Part shown: one piece after another, positions 3,719 to 46,544 of the stretch
Layout of the letters: every line of letters starts with the position of its first letter
How positions within the stretch are numbered: the first letter of the stretch is position 1
Assembly: GCA_030654175.1 (NCBI GenBank)
Contig: JAURXZ010000013.1
Location: 1 to 64,000, forward strand
From: Bacteroidia bacterium
GTDB lineage: Bacteria; Bacteroidota; Bacteroidia; 2-12-FULL-35-15
Length of the DNA stretch: 64,000 bases
Direction: 5' to 3'
Position numbers and translations under genes: made by a program
Notes under the pieces: generated by a model
The model's database searches: none
Seen by the model: only the letters and a program-made list of their open reading frames with translations
Told to the model about the DNA's origin: nothing

Positions 3719-3964
3719 GTTGGGCGATAAAGCACATCTGGAACATAACCTGAATAAATTGTAACAACCTTGCTGCACAGCCTTGGTTCGACTTGGCTCA
3801 TGACTAATTTTTAAAATAGAAAGAATTAGTTGAAATTTGGGGGTAATTTTCCTCAATCTGTGTACTTTTCTCCCAAAGCAAAAAACTAAAAATTTATTAA
3901 TCACACATTATCAATTAGTTAGGAGAATCCATTGAATTGGTACGATTTTTCTATTGGATTGAAA

Positions 3965-30568: not shown

Positions 30569-30574
30569 TTTGTA

Positions 30575-31315
30575 TTACTTTTTTTGTGTCTTTAATTTAC
30601 TTCTTAGCAAAAATAAGGAGTTGCTTATAAACCCAATACTACTGTCTATATGGTCTCTCAAAGTGTATTTGTTTTGATCCAAAATCCAGGTTGCCCGCTT
30701 TGAGCGAACATAATAGTCGTGATTTTTTGCAAATTTTCTAACTGCCTTACGAATAGGAAATCCTTGTTCGATTCCCCAATTCCAATCATCCCCTGTAAGA
30801 ATGGCAGAAGGGAAGAGGCGATGGGCAACTTCAATATCATCACCTGTTTTATCACTATCAAAATATATCAGGTTTGGGCATACCCCTAATTCAAATAGTT
30901 CGTAGAGTTTGTTTGGCGAGGTTCCGCGTACTGGAAATACTCTTTCTTTATATTCCCAAAAGGACGACAGAAAGGTCAAATATGGACCATCTTCTTTTTT
31001 AAATGGCTCAACTAGCTCGTGTCTGCCATTCTTTTCTGCATATTCAGCCCACCAATTACCTTCCCAGGGGTCAATCGCAATAACGTACACATTAGGGGAA
31101 ACGGCCAACCATTTCTTCACTGAAGATCCAAGAAAAACGCCTATTTCAACGATAATGAATATTTCGTTCTTTAAAATTCTATTGGTAATTATCTCTCTTC
31201 CACCACCATCAAGATTCCACTCCGCAGTCTTAAAATCGGGACGATTTTCCGGCCAGGAATATTTAGACCTCAGTGCATCAAGGTTTTTTTCAACAATTTG
31301 AGAAGAAATTTTCAT
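30575..31315 (-). CDS. Class I SAM methyltransferase-like protein
   Basis: 246 residues. IIVEIGVFLGSSVKKWLA gives motif I, YVIAIDPWEGNWWAEYAEK the acidic loop with an ID-PW pattern, and LIYFDSDKTGDDIEVAHRLFPSAILTGDDWNWG the motif II/III region. This is the Methyltransf_24-like group seen in glycan loci. Substrate unknown. Downstream of the Gmd-like gene by 84 bases on the same strand. Confidence 0.78.
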   Translation of the reverse strand: MKISSQIVEKNLDALRSKYSWPENRPDFKTAEWNLDGGGREIITNRILKNEIFIIVEIGVFLGSSVKKWLAVSPNVYVIAIDPWEGNWWAEYAEKNGRHELVEPFKKEDGPYLTFLSSFWEYKERVFPVRGTSPNKLYELFELGVCPNLIYFDSDKTGDDIEVAHRLFPSAILTGDDWNWGIEQGFPIRKAVRKFAKNHDYYVRSKRATWILDQNKYTLRDHIDSSIGFISNSLFLLRSKLKTQKK

Positions 31316-31399
31316 TATTGTTTTTTTTATTGACAGAATTTTAAAAAATGATTTAACAAAAATGTTTGTAAGTAACTAAACATTGAAAAAAAATAAGAC

Positions 31400-32356: not shown

Positions 32357-33616
32357 TTATTTTGCAACAATTTCAATTTGAGGTAAAGGGAAAATTAATT
32401 TTCCGCCCTTATTTAAAAAGTTCTGTTCGCGTTTAATTATACCTTCTCTAAAATGCCAAGGTAGTACTAGGAAGTAGTCAGGGTTTTGTGCCCGGGCAAT
32501 TTCTTCTGAAACGATTTCAATATGCGTTTTAGGAGTAAATGCGCCAAATTTATCTTCGTTGACTTCAGCTATACAAGTGATATCTTTATCAGTAAACCCA
32601 CAATATTGCAATAGAACATTTCCTTTTGTTGAAGCACCATAGCCAAATATTTTTTTTCCCGAGGCTTTAAGATTTTTTATCAAAGTTGTAAGTTCCTCTT
32701 TGTGTTTTACTACATTTTTTGCGAACGTACTGTATATGCCTAATCCATTATAGCCTTCGCTGTTTTCTTTATCCAACAAATCCGTGATTTTTTTATCATC
32801 AGCGACTAAAGTTGTTTGAACTTTTGCAACAGTTATTCTAAAACTTCCGCCATTTACATTATTAATATCAACATCAATAATTTTAAAACCTACTTTATCA
32901 CACAGCCATTTTATTTGCTTTAATCCATAGTATTCTAGGTGTTCATGGCAAATGGTGTCATAAGAATTTGTTTCAATCATTGAAGGAAGGTAGCTTTGCT
33001 CAAATACCCAAATACCATTGTCATCTAAAATGTCGTAAATGTTTTTTGCAAAAGTTAAAGGACTTTCCAGATCATAAAACATGGCAATAGAAGTAACAAC
33101 TTTTGCTTTTTTTGTAAACTTTTTGTTGTACACTTCTGAGCTAAAAAAATCAGCAACCAACCCAATATGTGAAGGGTAATGTTTTTTGAACTTCTGACCT
33201 GTTGGATCAATAACTGTTAAATTTAAGCCTTTATCGGAAGGATAAGTACTTAATAATGTTGAATCATTTCCCCCAATATCAATAATAATATCGTTTGGCA
33301 TTAATGTTAAACGAGATAGTATTTCACCTACTATGCTTTGTAAATGCTTAACCATTGATTGGTTAAGTCCGGAACGGTAACCATAGTTTTCGCCATACAT
33401 TTCGGAGCTATCATAGGAATGATTTAATTGAACAAGCCCGCAAACACTGGAAGGATCATTATCATTATAGCATTTAACCAGTTCTAAAGGTCCGGAGGTA
33501 ATGTTTTGTTCTTTCGATTTTGGAAATACACCTGTTAAAGTTTGTTCTCCCAAGTTTATCAAAGAAACTAAATTAGAATTACCACAAATTCTGCAACAAC
33601 TTATTTTTTTATACAT
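32357..33616 (-). CDS. Sugar C-methyltransferase with zinc-binding N-terminus
   Basis: 419 residues in three parts: CCRICGNSNLVSLINLGEQ with CxxC (zinc-binding, about 1-65), a SAM domain with IIIDIGGNDSTLLS and FEQSYLPSMIETNSYDTICHEHLEYYG (about 85-260), and a C-terminal domain with KKIFGYGASTKGNVLLQYCG (about 320-415). This is the TylC3/NovU architecture that C-methylates dTDP- or CDP-keto sugars. The EQSYLP..I..N.YDT.CHEH block carries the catalytic base candidates. Together with the Gmd-like gene it suggests a C-branched sugar in the polysaccharide. Confidence 0.92.
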   Translation of the reverse strand: MYKKISCCRICGNSNLVSLINLGEQTLTGVFPKSKEQNITSGPLELVKCYNDNDPSSVCGLVQLNHSYDSSEMYGENYGYRSGLNQSMVKHLQSIVGEILSRLTLMPNDIIIDIGGNDSTLLSTYPSDKGLNLTVIDPTGQKFKKHYPSHIGLVADFFSSEVYNKKFTKKAKVVTSIAMFYDLESPLTFAKNIYDILDDNGIWVFEQSYLPSMIETNSYDTICHEHLEYYGLKQIKWLCDKVGFKIIDVDINNVNGGSFRITVAKVQTTLVADDKKITDLLDKENSEGYNGLGIYSTFAKNVVKHKEELTTLIKNLKASGKKIFGYGASTKGNVLLQYCGFTDKDITCIAEVNEDKFGAFTPKTHIEIVSEEIARAQNPDYFLVLPWHFREGIIKREQNFLNKGGKLIFPLPQIEIVAK

Positions 33617-33705
33617 ATTAATTTAGAAAATTCAAATTTAATTAAAAATACCGAAAATGAAAACTAAACAATAGAAAAGGTCGGCAATTTATATTGCCTT
33701 GTTTT

Positions 33706-34887
33706 TCAGTTGCTTAACTGCATTAATCGTGGTAGTAGATTAAGCGCTGAATATTGTTTTGATAAAATTATTGCATTTTGTTTAAAAGTAATCATTTTTT
33801 TTGGCTCTAAAATCAATTCATTGAGCTTTGTGTATAAATCAGGGTAATTGTCATAAAAAATTACTGAATCCTTAAATTCACTGTCTAAAATAAATTCGCT
33901 TGGAAACAAGCCTGGTTTAGCTCCTCTTATCATGTTATAAACAGCCGCAGTTTCTTTTATCTGACCTTTGCCATCTTCACTTAAAATAACCGCAATATTA
34001 CTTAAAATAATATCCGATTTATATAGGTTTTCATCGTAAACTTCGGGTGAAATAAAGTTTTTATAATACAAAATCTCTAACCCTCTTTTTTCGAACACTT
34101 GCACCTGAGAAAGTAATTTCACTTCACCTTCCTGAAAAAAGCCTAACAGATCAATTGTTATGTGTTGTTTGAAAAATTCAAAATTAGCATCTATCAATTC
34201 AAAAAAACCAAAATAATCTCTTTTCCCCGCGCTAACAGAGCCTGGGATACATATCCTAAGCTTTTCTTGAATTGTAATTTCGGGCAAATTGGTGTTTTCA
34301 TATATAAGGGATGGGAATATGATAATTCTGTCCTTATTGATATGTTTTGAAAGAATATTTTTTTGGGTATCTCCTAAAGCAATATAATAGCTGTTTAATT
34401 TTATTACCTTTTTTATTACTTTTTTTCGCAAAGGATCCCTGTAAATTTCTTTAACGCACCATACCAATTGATTGTATATGTTTGAAATTTTATGATTGTT
34501 TTTAATAGTATTTATTAACAACTTTATTTGTGATTTAATGATTGATTCAAACCAATAATCAATATTATGAAAATGAAAAAAAATCAGTACATCTTTGTCA
34601 GGAAATGTTTGAATAAATTCTTTGTAATATTTTGATATCGTGCAATAATGAATTCGATGAGGATCGCTTTTTTTTATCTTTTCAAGAAACGACAAAACAC
34701 TTTCTTCATTATCTTTTACAACAAATTTTACATTATTAATTTTTTCGTTTTCTTTAAGATTTTGATAAATCTCCGGTGTGGTGTAAACAGTAATCTTTGC
34801 ATTCGGTAATATACAATACGTTTTTATGAGTGCATGGGTTACCATATAATGGCTGGGTACGCATATCTCTACTAATGCAATATTCAT
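33706..34887 (-). CDS. Putative GT-B glycosyltransferase of the polysaccharide locus
   Basis: 393 residues. The N-terminus MNIALVEICVPSHYMVTHALI and the middle LRICIPGSVSAGKRDYFGFFELI have the shape of the two GT-B lobes, and SEDGKGQIKETAAVYNMIRGAKPGLFPSEF resembles the donor-binding C-terminal lobe, with an Arg-Gly-x-x-Pro pattern. The usual GT4 EX7E motif is not clean. It is first in the minus-strand locus. A glycosyltransferase role is inferred from shape and position. Confidence 0.55.
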   Translation of the reverse strand: MNIALVEICVPSHYMVTHALIKTYCILPNAKITVYTTPEIYQNLKENEKINNVKFVVKDNEESVLSFLEKIKKSDPHRIHYCTISKYYKEFIQTFPDKDVLIFFHFHNIDYWFESIIKSQIKLLINTIKNNHKISNIYNQLVWCVKEIYRDPLRKKVIKKVIKLNSYYIALGDTQKNILSKHINKDRIIIFPSLIYENTNLPEITIQEKLRICIPGSVSAGKRDYFGFFELIDANFEFFKQHITIDLLGFFQEGEVKLLSQVQVFEKRGLEILYYKNFISPEVYDENLYKSDIILSNIAVILSEDGKGQIKETAAVYNMIRGAKPGLFPSEFILDSEFKDSVIFYDNYPDLYTKLNELILEPKKMITFKQNAIILSKQYSALNLLPRLMQLSN

Positions 34888-35005
34888 GATGTCAGATTAA
34901 ATTAGTAGTCAATAATTCTAAATGTGATTTATTCTTCAACTTTTTCTTTTCGCGATTTCGTTTTCTAATTGATTTTTTTTTTAGCTGGATAAGGAATGCT
35001 TTTCA

Positions 35006-35263
35006 ATGTTTTTAAACCTCATTTTTTTGAAAAAGCAAATGTACAAAATTTACTATAAAACAGCTTTTTATTCCGCAAACATCTTGATATTGAATGTTTT
35101 ATTTTTTGTGAATGAAATGGCAGCATTGTCATTTATTTCTGACAAAAAATGGATAGAATTGAAAATGAAATTCATATTATTTGAATTCGCAGGATGGTCT
35201 AAAAATGAATTAGAACTTTTACCTTCAAAATATGTTTTAGAAAATAAAAAATTTACGAGCTAA
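35006..35263 (+). CDS. Small hypothetical protein (uncertain)
   Basis: 85 codons from ATG 35006, or 74 from a second ATG (MYKIYYKTAFY). A hydrophobic stretch ILILNVLFFV and a short Lys/Glu-rich end are the only features. It lies in an AT-rich gap between divergent blocks, has no recognisable promoter, and could be a chance frame. Confidence 0.25.
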   Translation: MFLNLIFLKKQMYKIYYKTAFYSANILILNVLFFVNEMAALSFISDKKWIELKMKFILFEFAGWSKNELELLPSKYVLENKKFTS

Positions 35264-35430
35264 TTAACTTATATTTCTGATATAATGTGAAGGTATATGA
35301 TAATTCTATAATTAATTTTGAAAGCACTTTTCTTCGATGATAATTGCATTTTATATAGTTTTTGCAAATTCAAATTCGTGTTAATTGTTAAAACAATAAA
35401 TAAGAGAATCTCTAGTCAAAAATCTTGTTT

Positions 35431-35469
35431 TGGGGAAATAATTCTACATTTTGTGGGGAATTAATACCC
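35431..35469 (-). promoter_or_regulatory. Block-motif instances 1a and 1b (tandem)
   Basis: TGGGGAAATAATT at 35431-35443 is the exact complement of AATTATTTCCCCA; TTCTACA follows at 35442, then TGTGGGGAATTAATACCC at 35452-35469, whose complement GGGTATTAATTCCCCACA matches the instance before ytxH. Part of a motif family found before most units from 35.4 to 43.9 kb. Confidence 0.5.
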
Positions 35470-35870
35470 GGATCCCCAATAGTTGATTTTAAGAATTGCG
35501 ACTTAATGATAAATTCCTAAATTCTCTAGAAGCCCTATCAATATTGTTTTTTGCAATTAATCTTTTGATCGCTTATTTATGGCTTTTCCAAAAAGTAAGC
35601 AAATTTTGCAAAATCAACTGTTTTTAATATAAATTCAATTTTAGTTGGCCATTTACATGATTTTGGGCTCAGGATAAAGTGATTTCCTGCAATCAGATTT
35701 GTTCGTTTATCCATTGGTAGTGATGTTTTCCATGCAAGTGCCGATTTATGGGTGCTTTTTAATAGAACTTTAATTTAAAACGATTTTTGCAGAAATTTTC
35801 TGCGTTTTGGTTTTTAAAATGGGTTTAAATTCGGCAGATTCAGTTAATAATTACTTTAAAACAATTATTC

Positions 35871-35900
35871 CAAATTGTTGAGGAAATTTTTCCACATAAA
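35871..35900 (+). promoter_or_regulatory. Block-motif instance 2, before the NtrC-type regulator
   Basis: ACAATTATTCCAAATTGTTG then AGGAAATTTTTCCACAT. TGTTGAGGAAATTTTTCCAC plus A is an imperfect 21-bp palindrome (TGTnGAnnAAnTTnnTCnACA). It ends 11 bases before the TATATTTG at 35911, where a -33 TTG would be expected but is missing. Confidence 0.55.
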
Positions 35901-35910
35901 TTTATGGTTG

Positions 35911-35918
35911 TATATTTG
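35911..35918 (+). promoter_or_regulatory. TATATTTG -7 box of the regulator-kinase operon
   Basis: Perfect TAnnTTTG 27 bases before the ATG at 35946. No TTG at the right distance upstream; the palindrome of instance 2 occupies that place, suggesting an activator-dependent promoter. The string TGGTTGTATATTTGTT is also a poor sigma-54-like pattern. Confidence 0.5.
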
Positions 35919-35945
35919 TTAAAAGATATCCAAGAAATAGCATAT

Positions 35946-37388
35946 ATGGGCAAAATACTGATAATAGAAGATGACATTGATATGAGTCTTCTTCTAAAAA
36001 AATTTCTGACTAAAAACGGCTATGAAGTGGTGACCGTTGCTAATGGAAAAAATGGGATAGCTGCATTTGAAACAAATCAACCTGATTTGGTACTCTGTGA
36101 TTATCGCTTAGGTGATATGGAAGGTGTTGAGGTTCTTAAAAGGATAAAAGACATTGAGCCATCAGTTCCATTTATTATTATGACAGGATATTCTGATATA
36201 CGAACGGCTGTTAATGTAATGAAAATGGGTGCATTTGATTACCTGGCTAAACCTTTATTACCGGATGAAACACTTCAAATTATCAGACGGGCATTTGCAA
36301 GTCGTAATCAGGTAGCTCATGTTATTATGGATGAAGAAGCAACTACCTCCACTTTTCCTATTATTACAAAGGCAAAAACAAATGTCGGGAAAAGCGATTA
36401 TGTTTTTGGTAAAAGTCCACACTCCAGGGAATTACTTCGACAAATAGATCTGGTTGCACCTACAAATTATAGTGTAATAATATACGGTGAAAGTGGAGCC
36501 GGTAAAGAAGCGATTGCCCAAACGATCCATAAAAAAAGTAAACGTTCAAAACAACCATTTATAGCGATGGATTGTGGTGCCATTTCCAAAGAACTTGCGG
36601 GAAGTGAATTATTCGGACATGAAAAAGGCTCATTTACAGGTGCGTTAACAACCAAAATCGGACATTTTGAATTGGCAAATGGCGGAACAATTTTTTTAGA
36701 TGAAATAACCAATCTTCCTTATGATATTCAATCTTCTCTTTTACGCGTTGTTCAGGAGCGAAAAATAAAACGAGTAGGAGGGAACAAGGAAATTCCAATT
36801 GATGTGAGAATTATTGTTGCGAGTAATGAAAATTTAAATGAGGCCTATAAAAAAGGCAAATTCAGAGAAGATCTGTTTCATCGTTTTAATGAATTTCATC
36901 TGACTGTGGCTGCCTTGCGCGATCGTAAAGAAGATCTTCTCATGTATGCAAATTTTTTCCTCAACATCGCTAATCAGGAAGTTGGGAAAAATGTAGAGGG
37001 GTTTACATCGGAAGTGGAAGAATTGTTTTTAAAATACCCGTGGTATGGTAATCTTCGTGAAATGAAAAATGTGGTGCGCAGAGCCGTATTATTAACTGAA
37101 GGAACTGCCGTGGAAGCAAAATCTTTGCCGTTTGAGATTTCTAATTATACCCGCACCACAATGGCAATTGCTGATGATAAACAAGAATTGATCATTGAAT
37201 ACAATGTTAGTGCAGTCAATGATACCAAAGAAGAGAAGCCTGATTTAAAATCTGTGGCTCTTGTGGCCGAATATGATTTAATTATAAAAGTATTAAAAGA
37301 AGTAAATTATAATAAAAGTAAAGCCGCCAAAAATTTAAATATCGATAGAAAAACATTGTATAATAAAATGAAGGCGTATAATATGTAG
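35946..37388 (+). CDS. Sigma-54-dependent response regulator (NtrC family)
   Basis: 480 residues from ATG 35946; a start at 35904 would place the promoter inside the gene. REC domain 1-118 with phosphoacceptor D52 (LVLCDYRLGDMEG). AAA+ domain about 155-390: Walker A GESGAGKEA, GSFTGA loop (Ala to Ser variant of GAFTGA) that contacts sigma-54, Walker B LDEI, FREDLFHR arginine finger. C-terminal Fis-type HTH NYNKSKAAKNLNIDRKTLYNKMK. It activates sigma-54 promoters on phosphorylation. rpoN lies 7 kb downstream. The kinase gene follows after 16 bases, so this is an operon and probably a cognate pair. Confidence 0.95.
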   Translation: MGKILIIEDDIDMSLLLKKFLTKNGYEVVTVANGKNGIAAFETNQPDLVLCDYRLGDMEGVEVLKRIKDIEPSVPFIIMTGYSDIRTAVNVMKMGAFDYLAKPLLPDETLQIIRRAFASRNQVAHVIMDEEATTSTFPIITKAKTNVGKSDYVFGKSPHSRELLRQIDLVAPTNYSVIIYGESGAGKEAIAQTIHKKSKRSKQPFIAMDCGAISKELAGSELFGHEKGSFTGALTTKIGHFELANGGTIFLDEITNLPYDIQSSLLRVVQERKIKRVGGNKEIPIDVRIIVASNENLNEAYKKGKFREDLFHRFNEFHLTVAALRDRKEDLLMYANFFLNIANQEVGKNVEGFTSEVEELFLKYPWYGNLREMKNVVRRAVLLTEGTAVEAKSLPFEISNYTRTTMAIADDKQELIIEYNVSAVNDTKEEKPDLKSVALVAEYDLIIKVLKEVNYNKSKAAKNLNIDRKTLYNKMKAYNM

Positions 37389-37404
37389 TTTACTATAAAA
37401 GAAA

Positions 37405-38847
37405 ATGGATCAAAAAGAAAACATTAAGGTATTACTGGTAGAGGATGATGAAGATGATTATATTTTGTTTAAAGAAATTCTAAATGAGATTAAAATTAAT
37501 TCTTACTCTTTAACATGGGCATGCACCTATGAGAAAGCTCTCGAATTTATAAGTAAGAACGAGCATGATATTTATTTTTTTGATTACCTCTTAGGAGCCA
37601 GAACAGGTTTGGATTTAATTCAGGAATCTATCATTGCCGGAATAAATTCTCCTATTATAATTTTAACAGGACTTGGTAATCAGGAAACCGATTTAAAGGC
37701 AATGAAACTAGGTGCTGCGGATTACCTGGTTAAAGACGAAATCGATGTTAAAAAATTGGAACGGAGCATTCGATATTGCATTGAACAAAATCAAATGTTG
37801 AAAAAATTGAAAGCTTCTGAAACCAAATTTCGAAGCGTTTTTGAAAATTCTCATGATGTAATATACCTTTCGGATAAATTAGGAAACATTATTGATATTA
37901 ATAAATCTGCAGAACGATTATTTGGTTACTCTAGAGAAGAAATGCTTGCAATGAATACTGCGGCATTATATGAAAATGAAAAAGATCGGGAGAAATTTAT
38001 TGAGGAGTTACATAAAAATGGAAATTGTCCAAGTTTCGAAGTTGTTTTAAAGGACAAATCCTGGAATAAAAAATATTGTACCCTCACTGCCAACATTGAG
38101 AAAATTGGTGAAAATAGTGATATATATTATCAGGTTATTATTCACGACATGACAATGCGGAAAAGGGCAGAGCATGATTTGATCACTGCCGAAAAATTGG
38201 CCATTGTAGGAAGGATTGCGCGTACACTTGCTCATGAAGTTAGAAATCCTCTTACCAGTATCAATCTTTCTGTTGAACAATTAGAAGAGGAATTGGATGT
38301 GAAAAATAGCAGTCCATTTTTTGAAATTATTAAGCGAAATAGTAAACGTATTAATGACCTGGTTACCGAATTGATAGAAAATTCAAAACCTACAGAGCTT
38401 AATGAAGCTCCGATACTCATTCAAACAATTCTTCAAAATACCATTGATTTAGCAAGGGACAGGGCTGAATTGAAAAATATAAAAATATTAACTGATTTTA
38501 ACTTAAAAGATGAAACCATCATTGCTGATGAAGCTAATCTGACAATTGCGTTTTTAAATATTCTTATCAATGCCATTGAAGCTGTTCGAGAAGATATCGG
38601 AATAATTAAAATCAGTTCAAATTGTAATAATAACAAATGTTATATCTCTATTGAAGACAATGGATATGGCATTGATGAGCATCATTTAACAAAAATATTT
38701 GAGCCTTACTTTACCAACAAACCAAATGGTATGGGCTTAGGACTTGCCGCAAGTCAAAATATTATTAATATCCACAAAGGCAGAATTGATTTAGAAACCG
38801 AACTAAGGAAAGGTACTAAATTCAATATTGAATTAAACATGATCTAA
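37405..38847 (+). CDS. REC-PAS histidine kinase, partner of the NtrC-type regulator
   Basis: 480 residues. REC domain about 7-130 (D60 in IYFFDYLLG, KDE pattern in LVKDEID), PAS about 140-255 (FRSVFENSHDVIYLSDKLGNI), HisKA with H277 in LAHEVRNPLTSI, and HATPase with NILINAIEA, DNGYGID and GMGLGLAASQNII. No membrane segment, so it is soluble. An N-terminal receiver in a kinase that is followed in the operon by no other kinase means it may be regulated by an upstream relay, perhaps the Hpt protein elsewhere. Signal unknown. Confidence 0.93.
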   Translation: MDQKENIKVLLVEDDEDDYILFKEILNEIKINSYSLTWACTYEKALEFISKNEHDIYFFDYLLGARTGLDLIQESIIAGINSPIIILTGLGNQETDLKAMKLGAADYLVKDEIDVKKLERSIRYCIEQNQMLKKLKASETKFRSVFENSHDVIYLSDKLGNIIDINKSAERLFGYSREEMLAMNTAALYENEKDREKFIEELHKNGNCPSFEVVLKDKSWNKKYCTLTANIEKIGENSDIYYQVIIHDMTMRKRAEHDLITAEKLAIVGRIARTLAHEVRNPLTSINLSVEQLEEELDVKNSSPFFEIIKRNSKRINDLVTELIENSKPTELNEAPILIQTILQNTIDLARDRAELKNIKILTDFNLKDETIIADEANLTIAFLNILINAIEAVREDIGIIKISSNCNNNKCYISIEDNGYGIDEHHLTKIFEPYFTNKPNGMGLGLAASQNIINIHKGRIDLETELRKGTKFNIELNMI

Positions 38848-39128
38848 AAATTTATTTGTTTTTTGAAACAATAATGTTGTTTTGGATTAATAAAGATAGT
38901 TGTCTAATTATTTCCCCATAAAATAGGTACACTATTTTATATATAAATTCCAAAGGTAAAATCTTCCAGCTTTTTAATGCCTTTTATTTGCTGTGGATTC
39001 ACTCATTAATGAGTGGTCAATAGTTAATCTTAGAGGTTTTGAGGTAAAGTGTGTTTTTTTATGTGGCAATTTTGCTCATGAGCTTACCTGTCTTGAAATG
39101 TTAAATCGTAAAAAAGTAAAATAAAATC
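38848..39128. other. Intergenic region with block-motif instance 3
   Basis: 280 bases; the motif at 38899-38919 is followed by an AT-rich stretch. No gene or terminator seen. Confidence 0.5.
38899..38919 (+). promoter_or_regulatory. Block-motif instance 3
   Basis: GTTGTCTAATTATTTCCCCA followed by T. The AATTATTTCCCCA core is the exact complement of instance 1a. GGATTAAT 15 bases upstream resembles the left arm. It lies about 210 bases before the 118-residue hypothetical gene. Confidence 0.5.
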
Positions 39129-39485
39129 ATGGAAAAAGATATTCTTCATCCTACTAAACTTCTTAAAGGGCGGATCTCACTTAAATTTCAGAAGGAAAAA
39201 GATCTGAATGATTTTTGTGAGAGCACTTTTGAATACTATGATAAAGAACGTTTTGAGGCAATAGCAATAAGGTTGTATTACGGTAAAGAAATAATTGTTA
39301 CTCTTTATGCATTGGATAAAGCGAGGCAACAGGGAGGCGGTTTTTATTTTGGCAAACTACCAGTCAAAAAATTTAAAACAACGGCTATTTCTTTAGCTCA
39401 GGTTCTACCGTTTATTGAGGAATTCAATTTTACACTTACTTCTGGCAATTACCCATTGGATTCGATGGAAGTAATAAATAAATAG
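39129..39485 (+). CDS. Hypothetical protein, 118 residues
   Basis: A soluble, charged protein (MEKDILHPTKLLKGRISLKF ... FNFTLTSGNYPLDSMEVINK) with the look of a mixed alpha/beta domain: LKFQKEKDLNDFCESTF could be a first helix, RFEAIAIRLYYGKEIIVTLYALDK strands. No family recognised. It lies in the signalling block behind motif instance 3 and before a small acidic protein, so it may belong to the same regulon. Confidence 0.6.
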   Translation: MEKDILHPTKLLKGRISLKFQKEKDLNDFCESTFEYYDKERFEAIAIRLYYGKEIIVTLYALDKARQQGGGFYFGKLPVKKFKTTAISLAQVLPFIEEFNFTLTSGNYPLDSMEVINK

Positions 39486-39532
39486 TAATATTTTTTTGTA
39501 TAAAGTAATATGTTTAACTAAAAAAAATCAGC

Positions 39533-39724
39533 ATGAAAAAGAAGCGAAACGAGGAATTAGATTCCCCAAAGCAAATTAGCAAACCTAATAGAATTAAACA
39601 GGGTGTCAAAAAACAAAGCCCAGTTAAAAAGGTAAAACCTGCAACATTAGTAGAAGAAATGGATGATGAATTAATTGATGATGAGGAATTGGAATTATTT
39701 GAAGATAACGAAGATTTTATGTAA
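39533..39724 (+). CDS. Small highly charged protein, 63 residues
   Basis: Lys/Arg-rich first half (MKKKRNEELDSPKQISKPNR) and very acidic second half (EEMDDELIDDEELELFEDNED). Likely disordered. An ATG at a sensible distance from the previous gene (47 bases) and a strong terminator 65 bases after the stop support a real gene, but composition alone proves little. Confidence 0.5.
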   Translation: MKKKRNEELDSPKQISKPNRIKQGVKKQSPVKKVKPATLVEEMDDELIDDEELELFEDNEDFM

Positions 39725-39786
39725 TTATCGTTGTCTGACATTTAACACCAAATTGTCTTATTCATTTACTTGTTAATCCAAAAGTA

Positions 39787-39824
39787 AAAAACGATTACCC
39801 AATTAACGGGTAATCGTTTTTTTT
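39787..39824 (+). terminator. Strong terminator
   Basis: AAAACGATTACCC / GGGTAATCGTTTT, an 11-13 bp stem with a seven-base loop followed by eight T. Ends the unit with the 118- and 63-residue genes; the symmetry allows action on the convergent strand too. Confidence 0.93.
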
Positions 39825-39951
39825 ATTAATTAATTTTAAGAAAAGCGAAAGATGGTGCTTTTCTGAACTTTTACCAAACCGCTAATGAGTCATGAAAGTG
39901 CTTTTAACTTAACATTTCAGTTTGCGGTTTGGTAAATAGCTGGATAAAGTA

Positions 39952-40821
39952 CTAGTCGTTAAGCACAGCTAAATACTTACTTGTACTCCAGAATTTATCT
40001 GGTTGAATGATACGTAAATTAGTATATTCGCCATTTTCTTGCTCGAGCATATAGGAATCTGATGGATGCGTTGTTATTACTTTCGCTTTTTTACTATTTA
40101 TGGGGATATTAAGGACTAGAGTGTAATCTATTCGTGTAAAGTTGTTTTTGTCAACATCAGCATTTAATTTAGGTGTCTTGCCCATTCCAAGTACCCCTCC
40201 TGTTTTATTAATTATTTTCTTTTGCTCCATTTCTTTTGATTTCCCAACTAAATAATACGCTGTGTGGATGGATGCGATCTGATCAGCAATTATTTTAGAT
40301 TGCGAAGCGCTTGTGTTGGAAAGCGTATCAATGGAAGTTTGTAATTGTGCCATTTGTGCATTAGCAGAATTTAATTTTTCGTTAAGGGTTTGAAGCTCTG
40401 TATTTTTTGAAGCGATGTCTTCATTTAAACTTGCTATCATTTTTTGAAATTCGTTAATTTTTAAAGAATTGTTTTTTAATTTACGATTTAGCTCCGCTAT
40501 TTTTGCCTTGTTTTGATTCAACAAATTATTTATGGAAGCAATCTGAGAATTAATACGATTTTTTGTATTGCTTACAAATTTGCCTCCAGGTGTTTCCACT
40601 TCTGTTGATATAATGTTTTGCATTAATGCTACTGAATCGAGATTTTGTTTTATATCATTAAAGGAGAACAAAAGGTCGTTTATTGTGGAATCTTTTGAAC
40701 TCGCAACCATTGTGAGGGAATCGAGTTTATAAGATAATTTTTTCTGTTGCATTTCTGCTTCTTGGTTACAAGACGATAAAAGAATTACTGTTGCCAGTAT
40801 AGGTACTAAAAGAATTTTCAT
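39952..40821 (-). CDS. Coiled-coil lipoprotein
   Basis: 289 residues. Signal MKILLVPILATVILLSSC with lipobox LLSSC (lipidated C18). Residues about 25-185 are heptad-rich with SKDSTINDLL, INSQIASINNLLNQNKAKIA and NEKLNSANAQMAQLQTSIDT, a long coiled coil. The C-terminal part (KKAKVITTHPSDSYMLEQEN) is a small beta domain. Likely in the periplasm, anchored to a membrane. Found in other Bacteroidota as an unnamed protein of this shape. Divergent from nothing; it is controlled by motif instance 4. Confidence 0.8.
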   Translation of the reverse strand: MKILLVPILATVILLSSCNQEAEMQQKKLSYKLDSLTMVASSKDSTINDLLFSFNDIKQNLDSVALMQNIISTEVETPGGKFVSNTKNRINSQIASINNLLNQNKAKIAELNRKLKNNSLKINEFQKMIASLNEDIASKNTELQTLNEKLNSANAQMAQLQTSIDTLSNTSASQSKIIADQIASIHTAYYLVGKSKEMEQKKIINKTGGVLGMGKTPKLNADVDKNNFTRIDYTLVLNIPINSKKAKVITTHPSDSYMLEQENGEYTNLRIIQPDKFWSTSKYLAVLND

Positions 40822-40870
40822 GTTTTTTTATTTTTAGGGTTAGTTTATAAATTAGATTTAAAATTATATG

Positions 40871-40898
40871 CCAATGGTTTTATTTCCCAATTTGTAGT
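40871..40898 (-). promoter_or_regulatory. Block-motif instance 4 (degenerate)
   Basis: Complement reads CACTACAAATTGGGAAATAA, AACC, comparable to TTCTACA...GGGGAA of instance 1 with two or three bases lost. It lies 50-75 bases before the lipoprotein start at 40821. Weaker than the others. Confidence 0.35.
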
Positions 40899-40999
40899 GA
40901 CTTGCTGATAGTTTTTGAAATTTAAGATGATGACTTTAAAAAGGTTTCGTTAAATTTTACAATTAAATTGATTAATATTTTTTAACTCTAAATCGAGTT

Positions 41000-41341
41000 T
41001 TACTTTTCGCTTTTTAATTCAATTGTTTTCTGTTTCGGATTTGTTACAATTCTGTTTTCTATGTGCCCATTCATATCAATACATTCCCCGTTTTTCAATA
41101 CCAGATTTATACCATCGGATCTTAAAATGTTTCCATCTATTGTCACCTTTGAACCGTCTCTGAGTGTTACTAATGTGGTTGTTGGTACTTCATCCTTCAT
41201 AAGCATCATTATTCCATCTTTTAAAATGGCGCAATATTTGCCATTTTTTTCCTGCTCAAAGTTCCCTGTTGTATCCTTGATTTGTGATAATGCATTTAGT
41301 GAAAAAATGCAGAATGTTATTAAAAGGATCATTGATTTCAT
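41000..41341 (-). CDS. DUF6799 domain exported protein
   Basis: 113 residues with signal peptide MKSMILLITFCIFSLNALSQ. The repeated motif GKYCAILKDGIMMLMKDEV and GSKVTIDGNILRSDGINLVLKNGECIDMNGHI is the DUF6799 pattern (DG..M.L..GE..DM.G). Small periplasmic or surface protein of unknown function. Second gene of a possible operon with the DUF4136-like and OsmC genes. Confidence 0.75.
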   Translation of the reverse strand: MKSMILLITFCIFSLNALSQIKDTTGNFEQEKNGKYCAILKDGIMMLMKDEVPTTTLVTLRDGSKVTIDGNILRSDGINLVLKNGECIDMNGHIENRIVTNPKQKTIELKSEK

Positions 41342-41382
41342 ATTTATTTGTATTTAATAACCTTAAGGTTTAGGGATCCATT

Positions 41383-42057
41383 TTATTTAGATACCAGATC
41401 TCCATTTAAAACCCCATCTTTTTTCATCTTTGCAACAATTATGTTCGAAAATTCTTTAGAAAATATTTCCAACCCTGCAGGGTTATAGGTTCTTGATTGA
41501 GCCGACCAAACTAATTTTTCTGTTTTTACTTCATATAAATTCGTTTCAATGAAATATATTTTATCCTGAACATAATATCCCGGGTCGTAAGAGTAAGGAT
41601 ACCGGTAACTATAGTATCCCCAAAAATTGTCGTAGTAATTATACCCGATTATTGGATTGTAAGAATAGCTTCCGGGAATATACCTGGTTTCAGTTTCCTT
41701 GTTTATTAATGAAATGGTAAGAATTGCGTCTACATTTTTATTCTTAACATTTTTCATGATGGCTTCTTTATCAGAATCTGTGTTGTGAATATCAGGAGGA
41801 AACTCAGAAATGCTTTTTAGAACATTTATTCCGTTACCAAGAGCCAAAGCGAATTCATTTTCTAATGTAACTTTGGCTATTGTATTGCTTGTGAGAGCAG
41901 CAACTAAAATCTTGCTGTATTTTTGGGGAGGTACGCTGGGGCTTTTCCAGGATGCTGTTATAACTGTGGATGGCCCGCAACGTATAAAAAGCATTGCAAT
42001 AAATGAAAAATATGCAATTGCCGCGATTTTATAAATGTTTTTATTTGAAATTTTCAT
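41383..42057 (-). CDS. DUF4136-like lipoprotein
   Basis: 224 residues. N-terminal hydrophobic segment ending LFIRCGP, a possible lipobox with an atypical Arg at -1. The PSTVITASWKSPSVPPQKYSKILV start, an aromatic-rich low-complexity stretch YYDNFWGYYSYRYPYSYDPG, and NLYEVKTEKLVWSAQSRTYNP match the DUF4136 type of envelope lipoproteins. Function unknown; these often sit in stress-related loci. Overlaps no neighbour; 16 bases from OsmC. Confidence 0.72.
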   Translation of the reverse strand: MKISNKNIYKIAAIAYFSFIAMLFIRCGPSTVITASWKSPSVPPQKYSKILVAALTSNTIAKVTLENEFALALGNGINVLKSISEFPPDIHNTDSDKEAIMKNVKNKNVDAILTISLINKETETRYIPGSYSYNPIIGYNYYDNFWGYYSYRYPYSYDPGYYVQDKIYFIETNLYEVKTEKLVWSAQSRTYNPAGLEIFSKEFSNIIVAKMKKDGVLNGDLVSK

Positions 42058-42073
42058 CTTTCTATTTTAAATT

Positions 42074-42514
42074 TTATTTACTCATTTTCTCAACCACGAT
42101 TTCCTCTGTTAACGAAGCATCCATTGTTATGGAAAGAAATAAAGCTCTCGAAACCGGGCAATTGTCTCTGGCATTGATTGCATATTCTTCAAATTTCTCT
42201 TTGCTAATGCCTGGTACTTTTGCTTTTACAATTAGATGTGAATGCCCGATAACGCCTTTCTCTAGTGCTACTTCCGATGTCGTTTCAATTGTATCGGCAA
42301 TAAAGCCCGCATCTTCCAATAGGAAGCTAAGTTTCATTGTAAAACATCCTGCGTGCGCAGCCGCAATTAACTCTTCAGGATTAGTGCCCTTCTCATTTTC
42401 ATAACGGGTATTATACGCATAATATGCATTCTCAATCGCATGACTTTGAGAAGTAATTTTCCCACTTCCCGTTTTCCCTGAACCGTGCCAGATTGCTGTT
42501 GATGTTCGTTTCAT
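42074..42514 (-). CDS. osmC: OsmC-type organic hydroperoxide reductase
   Basis: 146 residues. N-terminal AIWHGSGKTGSGKITSQS, then the active-site cysteines C57 in AAHAGCFTM and C118 in DNCPVSRAL, spaced as in OsmC/Ohr, and E39-like residue in the GTNPEELIAAAHAG block. Thiol peroxidase that reduces organic peroxides in the cytoplasm; general stress function fits the neighbourhood of YtxH and lipoproteins. GTNPEEL and the length favour OsmC over Ohr. Confidence 0.92.
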   Translation of the reverse strand: MKRTSTAIWHGSGKTGSGKITSQSHAIENAYYAYNTRYENEKGTNPEELIAAAHAGCFTMKLSFLLEDAGFIADTIETTSEVALEKGVIGHSHLIVKAKVPGISKEKFEEYAINARDNCPVSRALFLSITMDASLTEEIVVEKMSK

Positions 42515-42662
42515 GATTTTTTTAAATTAACGTTAAACACTCTTTTAGGTTACTCGTAAGCCTTGCGATCGAATAAAATTGATCCTTGTTTTTCCAAGCG
42601 TGATTCGATTTATATTATTGCTAAAAGTATTATGCCATCATTAAAATTTTGGGCGTTTAAAA

Positions 42663-42685
42663 GTTGAGGATAAATTTCCCTGAGT
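42663..42685. promoter_or_regulatory. Block-motif instance 5
   Basis: GTTGAGGATAAATTTCCCTG, then AG. It resembles GTTGAGGAAATTTTTCC of instance 2. About 150 bases from the osmC start on the opposite strand. Confidence 0.45.
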
Positions 42686-42803
42686 TTTTTAAATATTCTT
42701 TGCAAAAGGTGGATTATTTTCTTAATCAATTGCAGAAAAAATATTTTTGATTAAAGTGTTTTTCGATTCCTTTTTTTTCGAATCTATAAACACTTCAAAA
42801 AAA

Positions 42804-42846
42804 TGGCAATTAGTTCTACAATTCGTTGAGCTAATTGCCCATTTGT
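42804..42846 (+). promoter_or_regulatory. Block-motif instance 6, before the holin-like gene
   Basis: GGCAATTAG (42805-42813) and CTAATTGCC (42831-42839) form a perfect 9-bp inverted repeat around TTCTACAATTCGTTGAG. It ends about 10 bases before the -33 TTG at 42851. Confidence 0.6.
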
Positions 42847-42850
42847 GAGT

Positions 42851-42880
42851 TTGGAAATAAAAACAACTCCGGTATTTTTG
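42851..42880 (+). promoter_or_regulatory. Promoter of the holin-like operon
   Basis: TTG at 42851-42853, a 19-base spacer and TATTTTTG at 42873-42880; perfect Bacteroidota consensus with the palindromic motif right upstream. Confidence 0.8.
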
Positions 42881-42975
42881 GGCATAATTATTAGTTGTTG
42901 CTTATTAGATTAAAGTAAATAAGCCAAATTTTTGTTTCTAGATTTTAAATTGACAGTTTGTATTAAAATATAATT

Positions 42976-43326
42976 ATGGAAGAGAATAATAAAATTGAAA
43001 AATTCCTTAAAGACGTTAAGGAATACGCTGAAGTCAGATTTGATTTAGTGTCCCTGAATGTTCAGGATAAATTTTCGGATATTGTATCATCACTTGTCTC
43101 AATAATTATGCTATCGGTAATGGCTTTATTGATATTGTTATTTGCAGGTATTGGCGCAGCAATATGGCTGGGGGAATATTTTAATAATGCTTCGATCGGA
43201 TTTTTTTGCATAACAGGATTTTATCTCCTTCTTGCTTTACTAATACTCTTTAACCGTGAGAAATGGATAAAATTTCCGGTAATGAATTCTTTGATAAAAA
43301 AAATACATTTTAATGATGAAAATTAA
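42976..43326 (+). CDS. Holin-X-like (phage_holin_3_6) membrane protein
   Basis: 116 residues with two transmembrane helices (about 38-62 and 76-95) flanked by charged regions: VKEYAEVRFDLVSLNVQDKF before them and a basic end. This matches the Holin-X / phage_holin_3_6 group, which in non-phage settings is a small stress-associated membrane protein, often next to YtxH. The next gene overlaps by 14 bases, so it is an operon. It is not evidence of a prophage. Confidence 0.75.
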   Translation: MEENNKIEKFLKDVKEYAEVRFDLVSLNVQDKFSDIVSSLVSIIMLSVMALLILLFAGIGAAIWLGEYFNNASIGFFCITGFYLLLALLILFNREKWIKFPVMNSLIKKIHFNDEN

Positions 43327-43690
43327 TTCCCTTGCAGATCTTAAAACTGAACAAAAGAGATTGCTTCAGCGAAAAGAGGTTCTTGAAACTGATATTATAA
43401 CTGGTTTTGAAAAATTTAAAGAAGAATTAAGGCCCTTAAGTTCATTTACCAAAGGTGCTGGAAATATATTGGTGAGTAAAGATAACGGGATCCTTGGCAA
43501 TTCATTAGGAGCCATTGCCAATTTTATAACAAGAAACGTATTGCTTAAAAATTCAGGTTTTATAACCCGATTGATAGTCCCATATCTGGTCAAAAATTCT
43601 ACAAGTAGTTTGGTTGAAAACAATAAATCAAAGATCGTTGATTGGGTAGGGAATATGTTTTCAAAATTTGCAGGTAAAAAAGCCGTATAA
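43313..43690 (+). CDS. Small hypothetical protein overlapping the holin-like gene
   Basis: 125 residues starting MMKINSLADLKTEQKRLLQR. A coiled N-terminus, a Gly-rich middle (NGILGNSLGAIANFITRN) and a short amphipathic C-terminus. No clear membrane helix. Such phage-shock-like small proteins follow holin-X genes in other Bacteroidota. Overlap of 14 bases with the upstream gene shows coupled translation. Confidence 0.7.
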   Translation: MMKINSLADLKTEQKRLLQRKEVLETDIITGFEKFKEELRPLSSFTKGAGNILVSKDNGILGNSLGAIANFITRNVLLKNSGFITRLIVPYLVKNSTSSLVENNKSKIVDWVGNMFSKFAGKKAV

Positions 43691-43729
43691 GATTATTGCC
43701 GGGATGTTAATTGTTCTGATCTAGTAAAG

Positions 43730-43775
43730 AGCAATTAATTCTACAATCTGTTGAAATTATTCTCCACATTTTGAT
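43730..43775 (+). promoter_or_regulatory. Block-motif instance 7, before ytxH
   Basis: GCAATTAATTCTACAATCTG, then TTGAAATTATTCTCCACATT. TTCTACA-N3-TGTTGAA is a near-perfect palindrome, and TGTTGAAATTATTCTCCACA a second one. It lies about 30 bases before a TTTTTTTG at 43800-43807. Confidence 0.6.
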
Positions 43776-43859
43776 TGTAAATTACCGAAATGGGGTTGTT
43801 TTTTTTGGCATGGTTTTTCTCTATCCCCTAATTAAAATAATAACTAAAAAATATATAGC

Positions 43860-44090
43860 ATGACAACAAATACGAAAATTATCGGAGCATTATTGCTCGG
43901 TGCAGCTGCAGGTGCAGTGTTAGGTTTATTATTCGCTCCAAGCAAAGGAAGCGATTTAAGACAAAAGATCAAAGATAGCACCAGTGATCTTGCTGATGAA
44001 TTATCGGACAAAATTAAGGAAGGTAAAGAAGCTCTATCAGGATTGAAAGAAAGAGTTATGTCAGAGGCTGGTGATCATAAAATGAGCTAA
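43860..44090 (+). CDS. YtxH-domain small membrane protein
   Basis: 76 residues. A Gly/Ala/Leu-rich N-terminal helix GALLLGAAAGAVLGLLFAPSKG is the YtxH signature; an amphipathic charged helix (LADELSDKIKEGKEALSGLK) follows. General-stress proteins of unknown mechanism, inner membrane. Its own motif and promoter, with stops in all frames before rpoN. Confidence 0.85.
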   Translation: MTTNTKIIGALLLGAAAGAVLGLLFAPSKGSDLRQKIKDSTSDLADELSDKIKEGKEALSGLKERVMSEAGDHKMS

Positions 44091-44409
44091 AAGGTGAGTT
44101 GCCTAAAATAAGACAGCTATTTTGAAAAACAGCAGATAAATTGGGCAAGGGAAGGATATATTACTTGTTTTTATTTTAAGAAGATGAAAACAGTTAGAAG
44201 AAAAAAATAAAGTGTTAATCAAAAAATGAAATCTGGTTAAATTACCTAGCATTTGATAACTTTTATAGTCTTTTTATTTTAAAAATTCTTATTTCCTTCC
44301 TTTGTTCAATTATTCCTTTGATTCAGAAACACTTAGAATGATAATTTTTTAAAAGTAATTCATTATTTATTATACTATTTCAGTCATTGTTTCCAATATT
44401 TATTTATTT
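44091..44409. other. Intergenic region ytxH-rpoN, nothing recognised
   Basis: About 320 AT-rich bases. No clear terminator, promoter or frame. The block motif is at best very weak here (TTATTTCCTTCC near 44290). Confidence 0.45.
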
Positions 44410-45858
44410 ATGAACCAGCGCCAGCATCAGCAACAAAAACAGCAGCAAAAGCAAGGCTATTATATGTCGCAGCAGCATTTAAAGTTAATGCACATCATGC
44501 ATTTATCCGGTTACGCGTTGCAGGAATATATTGCTAATGAAATTGAAATGAATCCGGTTTTGGAAATGGAGAAGGAAGGTGATGTTGAGTTAAAGAATAA
44601 TGAAGAAGATGATTCATTTGATTCAGAATTGGTATGGGATTCGGAGGATGAATCTTTTGAAAAGAATTATAAACAAACAACTTCTAATGAAGATTACTAC
44701 GAAGCTCCGATAGTTCAATATTATTCCTTGCAGGAAAATTTGAAAGCTCAAATTCAGATGTTGAATTTAAGTGGCGAAGTAACGGAGATTGTTTATTATT
44801 TGATAGATGAATTAAACGATGATGGTTATTTGCCAACTCCTTTATCGGAAGTTACAGACAACTATGAGTTTTGTAATGGGAAGATTGTCGTGGAAGAGAA
44901 AGTTGAAAATGCCCTTAACACTCTGCAGAAATGTGAGCCGGCTGGGGTAGGAGCAAGGGATCTTCGCGAGTGCTTGCTCTTACAACTTAGAAGGAAAAAG
45001 AAAGCGGATCATAAAATTCATAAATTATCAATGCAATTGCTTGAAGAAGAATACCAGGCTTTTGTTCAGCGTCAATATCTTAAAATTAAAACAGCCTTGG
45101 GTATTTCATCAGATGAGTTAGAAAAATGTATTAACTATATTAGTAAACTTAGCCCTAAACCGGTCACTGAAATTAATAAATATGAATTACTTAAAGAACA
45201 AATAATTCCTGATTTTGAAGTGACTGTTGAGGATCAGGAAATATATGTATCACTCACGTCATCTGAGTTTGTGAAACTTCTTGTGAATACAAATTACACT
45301 TCAAAGGATATGAATATCCGCAATAATACCGAACGAAAACAAGTTGACGACTATTATAAAAATTTGGTTTCAGATGCCAATTCACTTGTAAATGCTTTAA
45401 AGGAAAGGGAAACAACAATGATCAATGTTATGAAAGTAATTGTTCAAATGCAACCCGATTTTTTTAAAAGTGGTGACATAAAGGAGTTGAGGCCTATGAT
45501 ACTTCAAGATATTGCGGTTTCTACAGGATTCGATATTAGTACTGTGTCGAGAATAACAAGTAATAAACATGTACAAACACCATTTGGGATATTTGGATTG
45601 AAAAATTTGTTTATGAGAGCAATACCTTCCGAAAGTCTTGATTCTTCACCATCCACGTCAATTCAGGTTCAGGAACTTATTCAAGAAATTGTGAAGAAAG
45701 AGAATAAATCAAAACCATTATCTGATACCCATATTATGCAATTATTAAAGAAACAGGAAATATCTATCGCAAGGCGAACAGTGGTCAAATATCGGGAATT
45801 AGCTGGTGTTCCTAATAGTACTATGCGTAGGGAGCAAGAAATGATTTTAAATGAATGA
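44410..45858 (+). CDS. rpoN: RNA polymerase sigma-54 factor
   Basis: 482 residues. Gln-rich activator-interacting N-terminus MNQRQHQQQKQQQKQ, then LMHIMHLSGYALQEYIANEIEMNPVLE (AID), a core-binding region with SLQENLKAQIQMLNLSG and KCEPAGVGARDLRECLLLQL, the HTH about 365-400 (LQDIAVSTGFDISTVSRITSNKHVQTPFGIFGLK), and the C-terminal RpoN box RRTVVKYRE. It needs an AAA+ activator; the NtrC-type regulator at 35946 is a candidate. A small coiled-coil lipoprotein follows after 60 bases. Confidence 0.97.
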   Translation: MNQRQHQQQKQQQKQGYYMSQQHLKLMHIMHLSGYALQEYIANEIEMNPVLEMEKEGDVELKNNEEDDSFDSELVWDSEDESFEKNYKQTTSNEDYYEAPIVQYYSLQENLKAQIQMLNLSGEVTEIVYYLIDELNDDGYLPTPLSEVTDNYEFCNGKIVVEEKVENALNTLQKCEPAGVGARDLRECLLLQLRRKKKADHKIHKLSMQLLEEEYQAFVQRQYLKIKTALGISSDELEKCINYISKLSPKPVTEINKYELLKEQIIPDFEVTVEDQEIYVSLTSSEFVKLLVNTNYTSKDMNIRNNTERKQVDDYYKNLVSDANSLVNALKERETTMINVMKVIVQMQPDFFKSGDIKELRPMILQDIAVSTGFDISTVSRITSNKHVQTPFGIFGLKNLFMRAIPSESLDSSPSTSIQVQELIQEIVKKENKSKPLSDTHIMQLLKKQEISIARRTVVKYRELAGVPNSTMRREQEMILNE

Positions 45859-45919
45859 TCCGAATATTTCTCTGCCAAATAAAAAAAATTAGTTAGCATT
45901 AATTTAAATTATTAAAATC

Positions 45920-46333
45920 ATGAATTTAAGGAATATTGTTTGGGTTGGATTAGCAACTGTGAGTCTTTTTAATTCTTGCACTTCAAAGGAAGATAGAATT
46001 GAAAATGTACAGGAAAAAGTTTTGGATGTTAAAGAAGATCTAAAAAAGGCTCAGGAAGAATTTATTGCTGAATCCGAAAAACGAATTGAAGAAAACCGAA
46101 TAAAAATTGATGAATTACGAATAAAAATTGCAAATTCTGATATAAAATTACGTGAAGAATATTTGATAAGAGTGAATAAATTGGAGCAAAAAAATACGGA
46201 ATTAAAAACCAAACTCAAAGAATATAAGGAAGAAGGAAAAGAGAAATGGGAAGAATTTAAACGTGAATTTAATTACGATATGGATGAATTAGGAAAAGCA
46301 TTGAAAGATCTTGTTATTGATAATAAAAAATAA
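45920..46333 (+). CDS. Small coiled-coil lipoprotein
   Basis: 137 residues. Lipoprotein signal MNLRNIVWVGLATVSLFNSC with lipobox LFNSC. The rest is an almost uninterrupted charged helix (EDRIENVQEKVLDVKEDLKK ... KIDELRIKIANSDIKLREEY) ending FNYDMDELGKALKDL. Fits the envelope-stress theme of this block and of the lipoprotein at 39952. Confidence 0.82.
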   Translation: MNLRNIVWVGLATVSLFNSCTSKEDRIENVQEKVLDVKEDLKKAQEEFIAESEKRIEENRIKIDELRIKIANSDIKLREEYLIRVNKLEQKNTELKTKLKEYKEEGKEKWEEFKREFNYDMDELGKALKDLVIDNKK

Positions 46334-46544
46334 GGATGTTTTAATATATAAATCGAATGTAATAATATATTTAGAGGCCAAATCTTAGATGCTTTAATGT
46401 CTTTTTGTATCTCAATAATTAAAGCACTAATTATTTTTTAATGTAAATGTTTTGTCATTAACTAAGCTATTCAAATAGTCTTTACCTCACCATTTGCAAT
46501 ATGGAATGACCTATCCATGATTTATTCCTACGAATTTAATTAAA

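Follow-up and report, generated by a model that had tools for sequence, protein, structure and literature searches.

A repeated palindromic motif as the probable operator of an NtrC-type regulator of sigma-54-type promoters in an uncultured Bacteroidota

We analyzed the first 64,000 nucleotides of contig JAURXZ010000013.1 (contig C30 of genome G000, a 5.1 Mb genome from an uncultured Bacteroidota), hereafter the window. A block at 35-44 kb of the window encodes an NtrC-type response regulator, a receiver-PAS kinase, small hypothetical proteins, a coiled-coil lipoprotein, a DUF6799 protein, OsmC, a holin-like protein and YtxH, followed by rpoN. Within this block a palindromic motif with the consensus TTGGGGAA-N4-TTCCCCAA recurs. 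We consider it likely, judging from sequence, that these sites are bound by the NtrC-type regulator and are used both as tandem sigma-54 enhancers and as a single autoregulatory palindrome. We read the block as most probably a local NtrC/sigma-54 stress regulon that combines tandem enhancers with autoregulation. Sites, spacing, conservation and the accompanying promoter elements can be read directly from the DNA, and from them we infer binding by the regulator, the direction of regulation and a role in stress or at the envelope. Gene calls throughout are simple longest open reading frame (ORF) calls, and G and L codes denote other genomes and loci.

The regulator is a predicted sigma-54 enhancer-binding protein

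The regulator (35946..37388, plus strand) was characterized through Pfam, PDB relatives and sequence motifs. It has a receiver domain (PF00072), a sigma-54 AAA+ domain (PF00158, 221 bits) with GSFTGA, a variant of the GAFTGA loop, and with Walker A and B motifs (GESGAGKE and GGTIFLDE), and a Fis-type helix-turn-helix (PF02954). Domains and motifs thus class it as a predicted sigma-54 bacterial enhancer-binding protein of the NtrC superfamily. It scores under the NCBIfam equivalog cut-offs for NtrC proper, or NR(I) (TIGR01818, 395.9 vs 558.6; NF008176, 351 vs 620). Pfam identifies the product of the next gene (37405..38847, plus strand) as a sensor kinase with receiver, PAS, HisKA and HATPase domains.

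A conserved palindrome lies at the regulator's own promoter

The operator of the regulator gene is the palindrome TTGAGGAAATTTTTCCACAT at 35878..35897, which was the top match in the 1.277 Mb scanned. We compared it with close orthologues of the regulator, which are 76-83% identical and come from seven genomes of the genus, with four more from a second collection that were held out of training. The palindrome precedes the regulator gene in 12/12 close orthologues, including the four held out, which supports the original prediction that the regulator-kinase pair is autoregulated. Alignment of the upstream DNA from eight genomes places it, with best forms TTGGGGAATATTTTCCCCAA (G019) and TGGGGAATAATTTCCCCA (G012), directly upstream of a conserved promoter element, TGGTTRTAWATTTG. 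In the held-out orthologues, the operator was the best match of the entire 10-18 kb locus, lying at -69, -65, -66 and -68 relative to the start of the regulator gene, with scores of 15.4, 19.0, 17.9 and 14.7.

The conserved element resembles the -7 consensus described for sigma-A promoters of Bacteroidota (PMC6847099, PMC7366714). In the window the -7 element reads TATATTTG (35911..35918, plus strand), and the operator is centered at about -35.5. In ten of the 12 orthologues the palindrome center falls at -35.5 or -36.5 relative to a -7 element reading TAHHTTTG; the exact TAHHTTTG is missing in loci L173 and L179. Since the palindrome covers the -33 region, this single site at a sigma-A promoter would be autoregulatory and probably repressing. 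A sequence-only model (R1), applied to eight genomes, ranked the regulator promoter first in G000, G019, G012, G032 and G008, but other places came out ahead of it in G009, G018 and G028. We did not use this model as proof because of these three genomes and because training sites were included.

The DnaA box has the consensus TTWTNCACA, and one part of the palindrome, TTTTCCACA, fits it. The proximal site might accordingly act as a DnaA box; it might also be an ordinary repressor operator with no link to sigma-54. We regard both as very improbable: at this place the orthologues carry TTCCCCAA, TTCTACAA or TTACTCAA, none of which fits the DnaA consensus, and tandem copies of the motif are found again ahead of sigma-54 elements.

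A second, distal site is found at 35430..35472, 516 bp before the start of the regulator gene, and consists of TTGGGGAAATAATTCTACAT (35430-35449, score 19.6) and GTGGGGAATTAATACCCGGA (35453-35472, score 12.4), a single tandem pair that the original prediction had listed as two sites. The best score between -700 and -100 was 12.9-20.3 in 8/8 genomes and 15.3, 13.0, 12.3 and 6.8 in the held-out orthologues; 0.9% of 1854 null 600-bp windows score at least 13, and some of the distal sites had been in the training set. Its neighbors vary, with a divergent kinase gene nearby in four genomes and a DksA/TraR-like gene between the distal and proximal sites in G019, G012 and G032. Within the window, no ORF or RNA was identified in the approximately 400 bp between the two sites (35473-35877). 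The distal site may serve autoregulation by looping, or may have a separate target.

DksA/TraR-like genes (L034:16345-16701, L143, L146) occur near operator-like sites in five genomes, three of them divergent from the regulator and two on other contigs. Their zinc-finger family was confirmed for one.

Tandem sites stand at a fixed distance from sigma-54-type promoters

Before ytxH and before the holin operon, sites come in pairs spaced by about 21 bp around TTCTACANNNTGTTGA. The tandem between osmC and the holin-like gene, GGCAATTAG-TTCTACAATTCGTTGAG-CTAATTGCC (42804..42846, center 42822), is conserved in G017 and G022, and a sigma-54-type promoter of the holin operon, TTGGGCATAATTATTAGT (42878..42895, plus strand), follows 59 bp from its center. 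The tandem before ytxH comprises two 20-mers 21 bp apart (43727..43767, center 43747), is conserved before ytxH in relatives, and is followed at 60 bp from its center by the sigma-54-type promoter TTTGGCATGGTTTTTCTC (43804..43821, plus strand).

The canonical TGGCAYN5TTGCW shows no excess in the window (64 vs 67 expected), and we therefore scored promoters with a matrix trained on relatives only. Of its 73 window matches scoring at least 7.5 on both strands, the holin promoter ranked 1st (16.2), the ytxH promoter 3rd (13.6) and a promoter at the gene at 3932 10th (11.8), with chances of such a match at random window positions of 0.0012, 0.003 and 0.009, respectively. All seven held-out tandems (two each in G000 and G017, one each in G012, G032 and G022) have a -24 element scoring 13.6-17.7 downstream, at distances of 59, 60, 59, 60, 61, 71 and 60 bp as measured from the tandem center; the four training tandems give 61-62 bp, and G028 was too short for this test. 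Promoters picked by hand lie 59, 70 and 70 bp away for the opposite-side MlaE genes, 64 bp for the lipoprotein of G032 and 82 bp for the tandem at 3837. The spacing from tandem to -24 element corresponds to about -85 from the start, a usual place for an enhancer. These paired sites placed like NtrC enhancers before sigma-54-type promoters, with rpoN adjacent, had escaped the original prediction, as had the different, sigma-A arrangement of the regulator promoter.

The tandem also tracks its target genes. The exact TTCTACANNNTGTTGA occurs once in each of 6/8 genomes, always on the regulator's contig, five times before ytxH and the sixth time (G028) at a contig end. Among 38 holin-like matches in 36 genomes of the genus, nine are close (48-100% identity) and 29 distant, 21 of the latter with loci. 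Eight of the nine close loci have the tandem at no more than one mismatch, the ninth being cut off 204 bp upstream, and none of the 21 distant loci examined has it even at two mismatches or fewer.

Two further promoter elements are recognizable by conservation. The predicted sigma-54-type promoter of the osmC operon, ATGGCATAATACTTTTA (42622..42638, minus strand), has 16/17 bases the same in G022, the two genomes sharing the element ATGGCATAATACTTTYAG. That of the coiled-coil lipoprotein gene 39952-40821, TTGGCATATAATTTTAA (40858..40874, minus strand), follows the pattern TGGYAY..TTTTA, which is kept in 5/5 genomes aligned.

The motif clusters around the regulator gene and is enriched in genomes that encode it

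We scanned 1.277 Mb of the 5.1 Mb genome (C30, C31 and 600 kb of C16) with a matrix from 19 relatives' sites. The four best matches, at C30:35878, 67307, 35430 and 3837, all fall within C30:1-68000 (p 8e-6); the site at 67307 is on the same contig 3.3 kb beyond the window, within the 3' end of a called ORF. Six of the 12 matches scoring at least 15 also fall within C30:1-68000 (p 1.6e-5). A reversed-matrix control gave seven matches of at least 15, none in C30:1-68000 and none reaching 19. We read the six outlying matches as background, as they are near the control's number.

Across the genus, TTGGGGAANNNNTTCYMCA at no more than one mismatch was found 56 times vs 6 for the control in the eight regulator-bearing genomes, and 44 vs 32 times in the other 28 genomes, where no close orthologue was detected (Fisher p 1.8e-5 for the contrast; palindromic places counted on both strands). 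Within G000, the exact palindrome at no more than one mismatch marks three places (six rows, both strands) vs eight rows for the control pattern. This enrichment and the clustering round the gene agree with the original prediction that the sites form a single operator family, which most likely belongs to the regulator at 35946.

The motif is real, and its list of sites needs editing

Another matrix was trained on the regulator promoters of seven relatives, with the window sequence excluded. Its top five window matches were 35878 (20.5), 3837 (20.5), 35430 (19.6), 42664 (16.1) and 38900 (15.8), and 43748 (12.5), 35453 (12.4) and 43727 (9.6) followed, interspersed with coding matches. Four matches scored at least 16, whereas 64 kb of order-1 Markov sequence would be expected to give 0.37; among 60 null maxima, the top value was 21.4. 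We conclude that the repeated motif is real from this outside matrix and from the phylogenetic comparison, not from string counts in the window.

The list of eight sites needs editing. The sequences quoted in the original prediction lie where it placed them, and its sites at 35871-35900, 42804-42846 and 43730-43775 are real and conserved. Those at 38899 and 42663 fit the matrix and were not seen conserved. The matrix-positive site TTGTCTAATTATTTCCCCAT (38900..38919, score 15.8), before gene 39129, and TTGAGGATAAATTTCCCTGA (42664..42683, score 16.1), between osmC and the holin operon, have no counterpart before orthologous genes in the relatives examined, and the latter is absent from G022. Position 40871-40898 finds no support: it is outside the 22 best window matches of either matrix and abuts the conserved sigma-54-type -24 element of the lipoprotein gene.

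The statement that the motif occurred nowhere else in the window was wrong. An additional tandem, TTGGGGGTAATTTTCCTCAA / CTGTGTACTTTTCTCCCAAA (3837..3877, 21 bp spacing, scores 20.5 and 9.7), lies in the window, besides the further site at 67307 on the contig. Downstream of this tandem, a predicted sigma-54-type promoter, ATTGGTACGATTTTTCTA (3936..3953, plus strand), precedes a gene ending at 4837. This promoter overlaps the called gene start, and the true start may be at 3965 or later.

Points against the proposed regulon and competing explanations

Several results weigh against the reading of the sites as the regulator's operators and sigma-54 enhancers. Loose consensus strings show no significant excess in the window: TGTNGANNAANTTNNTCNACA at three mismatches or fewer occurs 11 times vs 7.7 expected, AATTATTTCCCCA 78 vs 63 and TTCTACANNNNGTTGA 92 vs 80. 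Likewise, TTCTACANNNTGTTGA is not enriched genome-wide, with 71 places vs 61 for the control at no more than one mismatch in the eight genomes and, as an exact string, 10 vs 7 in the 28 genomes, three of the 10 within the G017 and G022 blocks; the evidence for it rests on its place and not on its number. The -12 elements read TTAG, TTCT, TTCC, TTTA and the like, with the canonical GC weak or missing, and the osmC and lipoprotein elements score only 4.8 and 4.5 with the sigma-54 matrix. No sigma-54 element was found downstream of 35430 on either strand, at 35878 or downstream of 38900. The operator was not found at the regulator promoters of homologues of 46-58% identity. Finally, G017 and G022, both among the 28 genomes (83% and 78% complete), carry the target block and its tandems, and no close regulator was found in them.

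The shortage of string excess, together with the sites at 40871, 38899 and 42663 not being seen conserved, would suit an origin by chance, as AT-rich intergenic palindromes picked by eye. The independent matrix, the held-out orthologues, the fixed spacing to promoter elements and the lack of a tandem at 21/21 distant paralogues examined make this highly implausible. Chance is refuted for 35430, 35878, 42804 and 43730, a refutation that does not extend to 38899, 40871 and 42663.

The sites could also be those of a different DNA-binding protein from this clade, for which G017 and G022 speak, having tandems and no detected close regulator. Such a protein, whether another regulator of NtrC type or the LytTR regulator encoded at C30:66464, would control this block, the NtrC-type pair included. 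The genome has many sigma-54 activators (27 scored matches), and a conserved site lies before the LytTR regulator. We nevertheless think this unlikely, given that conservation is highest for the site at the promoter of the 35946 regulator itself (12/12) and that the sites cluster around its gene; the LytTR regulator, moreover, is not a sigma-54 activator, which the sigma-54 arrangement demands. Binding by the NtrC-type regulator at 35946 is the reading we favor.

Gene content of the block and its relatives

In the window, the holin-like gene (PF07332) and a hypothetical gene (42976..43690, plus strand) are followed by ytxH (43860..44090, plus strand; PF12732) and then by rpoN, encoding sigma-54 (44410..45858, plus strand; TIGR02395, 368 bits vs a cut-off of 277), a neighborhood that is conserved. 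In G009, ytxH, the holin-like gene, a hypothetical gene and rpoN stand in one row, and sites occur within a block of 30 kb that also encodes Ku, LigD, an Omp85 protein, BrkB, DUF748, MlaD, an ABC ATPase and MlaE. The envelope-stress regulon of the original prediction fits this gene content (OsmC, holin-like, YtxH and lipoprotein genes here, MlaE/MlaD and Omp85 genes in relatives), and such a role may be proposed from it. Sites also precede, in G000, a gene assigned by a family search to the LytTR response regulators (site at C30:67307), a LytTR-like gene on another, unlinked contig of G019, where the site is conserved, rpoN in Jiulongibacter (22.1), a DUF892 gene in Flavisolibacter, and a Cbp1-family lipoprotein, of the family of 39952-40821, in Lentimicrobium. 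In these last three genera the operator is not at the promoter of the 46-58% regulator homologues, those of Jiulongibacter and Flavisolibacter being 54-58% identical.

Some side observations concern the same loci. The coiled-coil lipoprotein 39952-40821 matches NCBIfam NF052320, a Cbp1-family collagen-binding adhesin (219.8 bits, cut-off 90), which is odd in a stress block. In G009 (L039:7973-11348), Ku and a multidomain LigD (nonhomologous end joining) share the stress block with the regulator. In G053, whose regulator homologue is about 54% identical, a YtxH-like gene (L041:3013-3234, assigned by eye) with a promoter-like CTGGCATGATTTTCAC stands directly before the regulator gene.

We also noted a candidate conserved non-coding RNA of about 105 nucleotides at L110:8806-8915 on the minus strand (G009:C4:205805-205914), G018:C12:100709-100815, G008:C6:172141-172246 and G028:C16:3466-3571. 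It occurs in only 4/36 genomes of the genus, with 90-100% identity to the G009 query, has a sigma-54-type element directly before it and ends in a terminator-like hairpin with a T run. None of the 10 Rfam matches listed for loci L110 and L111 reaches its gathering score, and a weak match in G000 was rejected as lying in a coding frame. An Rfam search of window positions 30000-50000 gave a single match, under its gathering score.

Discussion

We propose that a pair of dimer sites, spaced 21 bp apart, would act as an enhancer from about 60 bp ahead of the sigma-54 -24 element. The phosphorylated regulator would assemble at the tandem, loop the DNA and, at ytxH and the holin operon, remodel the sigma-54 polymerase; the same activation would probably extend to the gene at 3932, the lipoprotein gene and osmC, which is 186 bp away from the enhancer it shares. 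The single palindrome at the regulator's own sigma-A promoter, with the second site a few hundred bp upstream, would give autoregulation, most likely repression. A more tentative extension, which we hold to be somewhat doubtful, is a self-reinforcing local sigma-54 switch in Bacteroidota: the palindrome would be a repressor site at the sigma-A promoter and, as a 21-bp tandem, an enhancer, the target operon of relatives would carry rpoN and so give positive feedback, and a new sigma-54-driven small RNA of about 105 nucleotides would be among the outputs.

The arrangement resembles NtrC and glnA, in which a regulator with receiver, AAA+ and Fis helix-turn-helix domains uses tandem palindromes upstream of -24/-12 promoters and has sites at its own sigma-70-type promoter. 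It differs in its motif, its targets (holin-like, YtxH, OsmC and lipoprotein genes), its weak -12 elements and a regulator below the NtrC cut-offs. PspF, which lacks a receiver domain, and ZraR are sigma-54 envelope-stress systems whose activators are thought to guard the envelope; they are among the likenesses suggested by PDB relatives of the regulator, but the regulator scores under the ZraR and PspF cut-offs, and the block's scanned proteins gave no match to a psp or zra family.

The NtrC/sigma-54 mechanism is textbook, and the regulon itself is undescribed in the literature searched. The available text of a sigma-54 regulon survey with Bacteroidota data names no NtrC-type regulator, operator or comparable gene block (PMC12316311). 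Descriptions of operators for NtrC-type regulators of Bacteroidota seem scarce, and literature searches aimed at this system found no paper on it. The analysis yields a regulator and its probable operator along with a class of promoters and a few candidate targets, all directly testable, and would tie the 'stress' genes for OsmC, YtxH, the holin-like protein and the Cbp1-family lipoprotein to sigma-54 in Bacteroidota.

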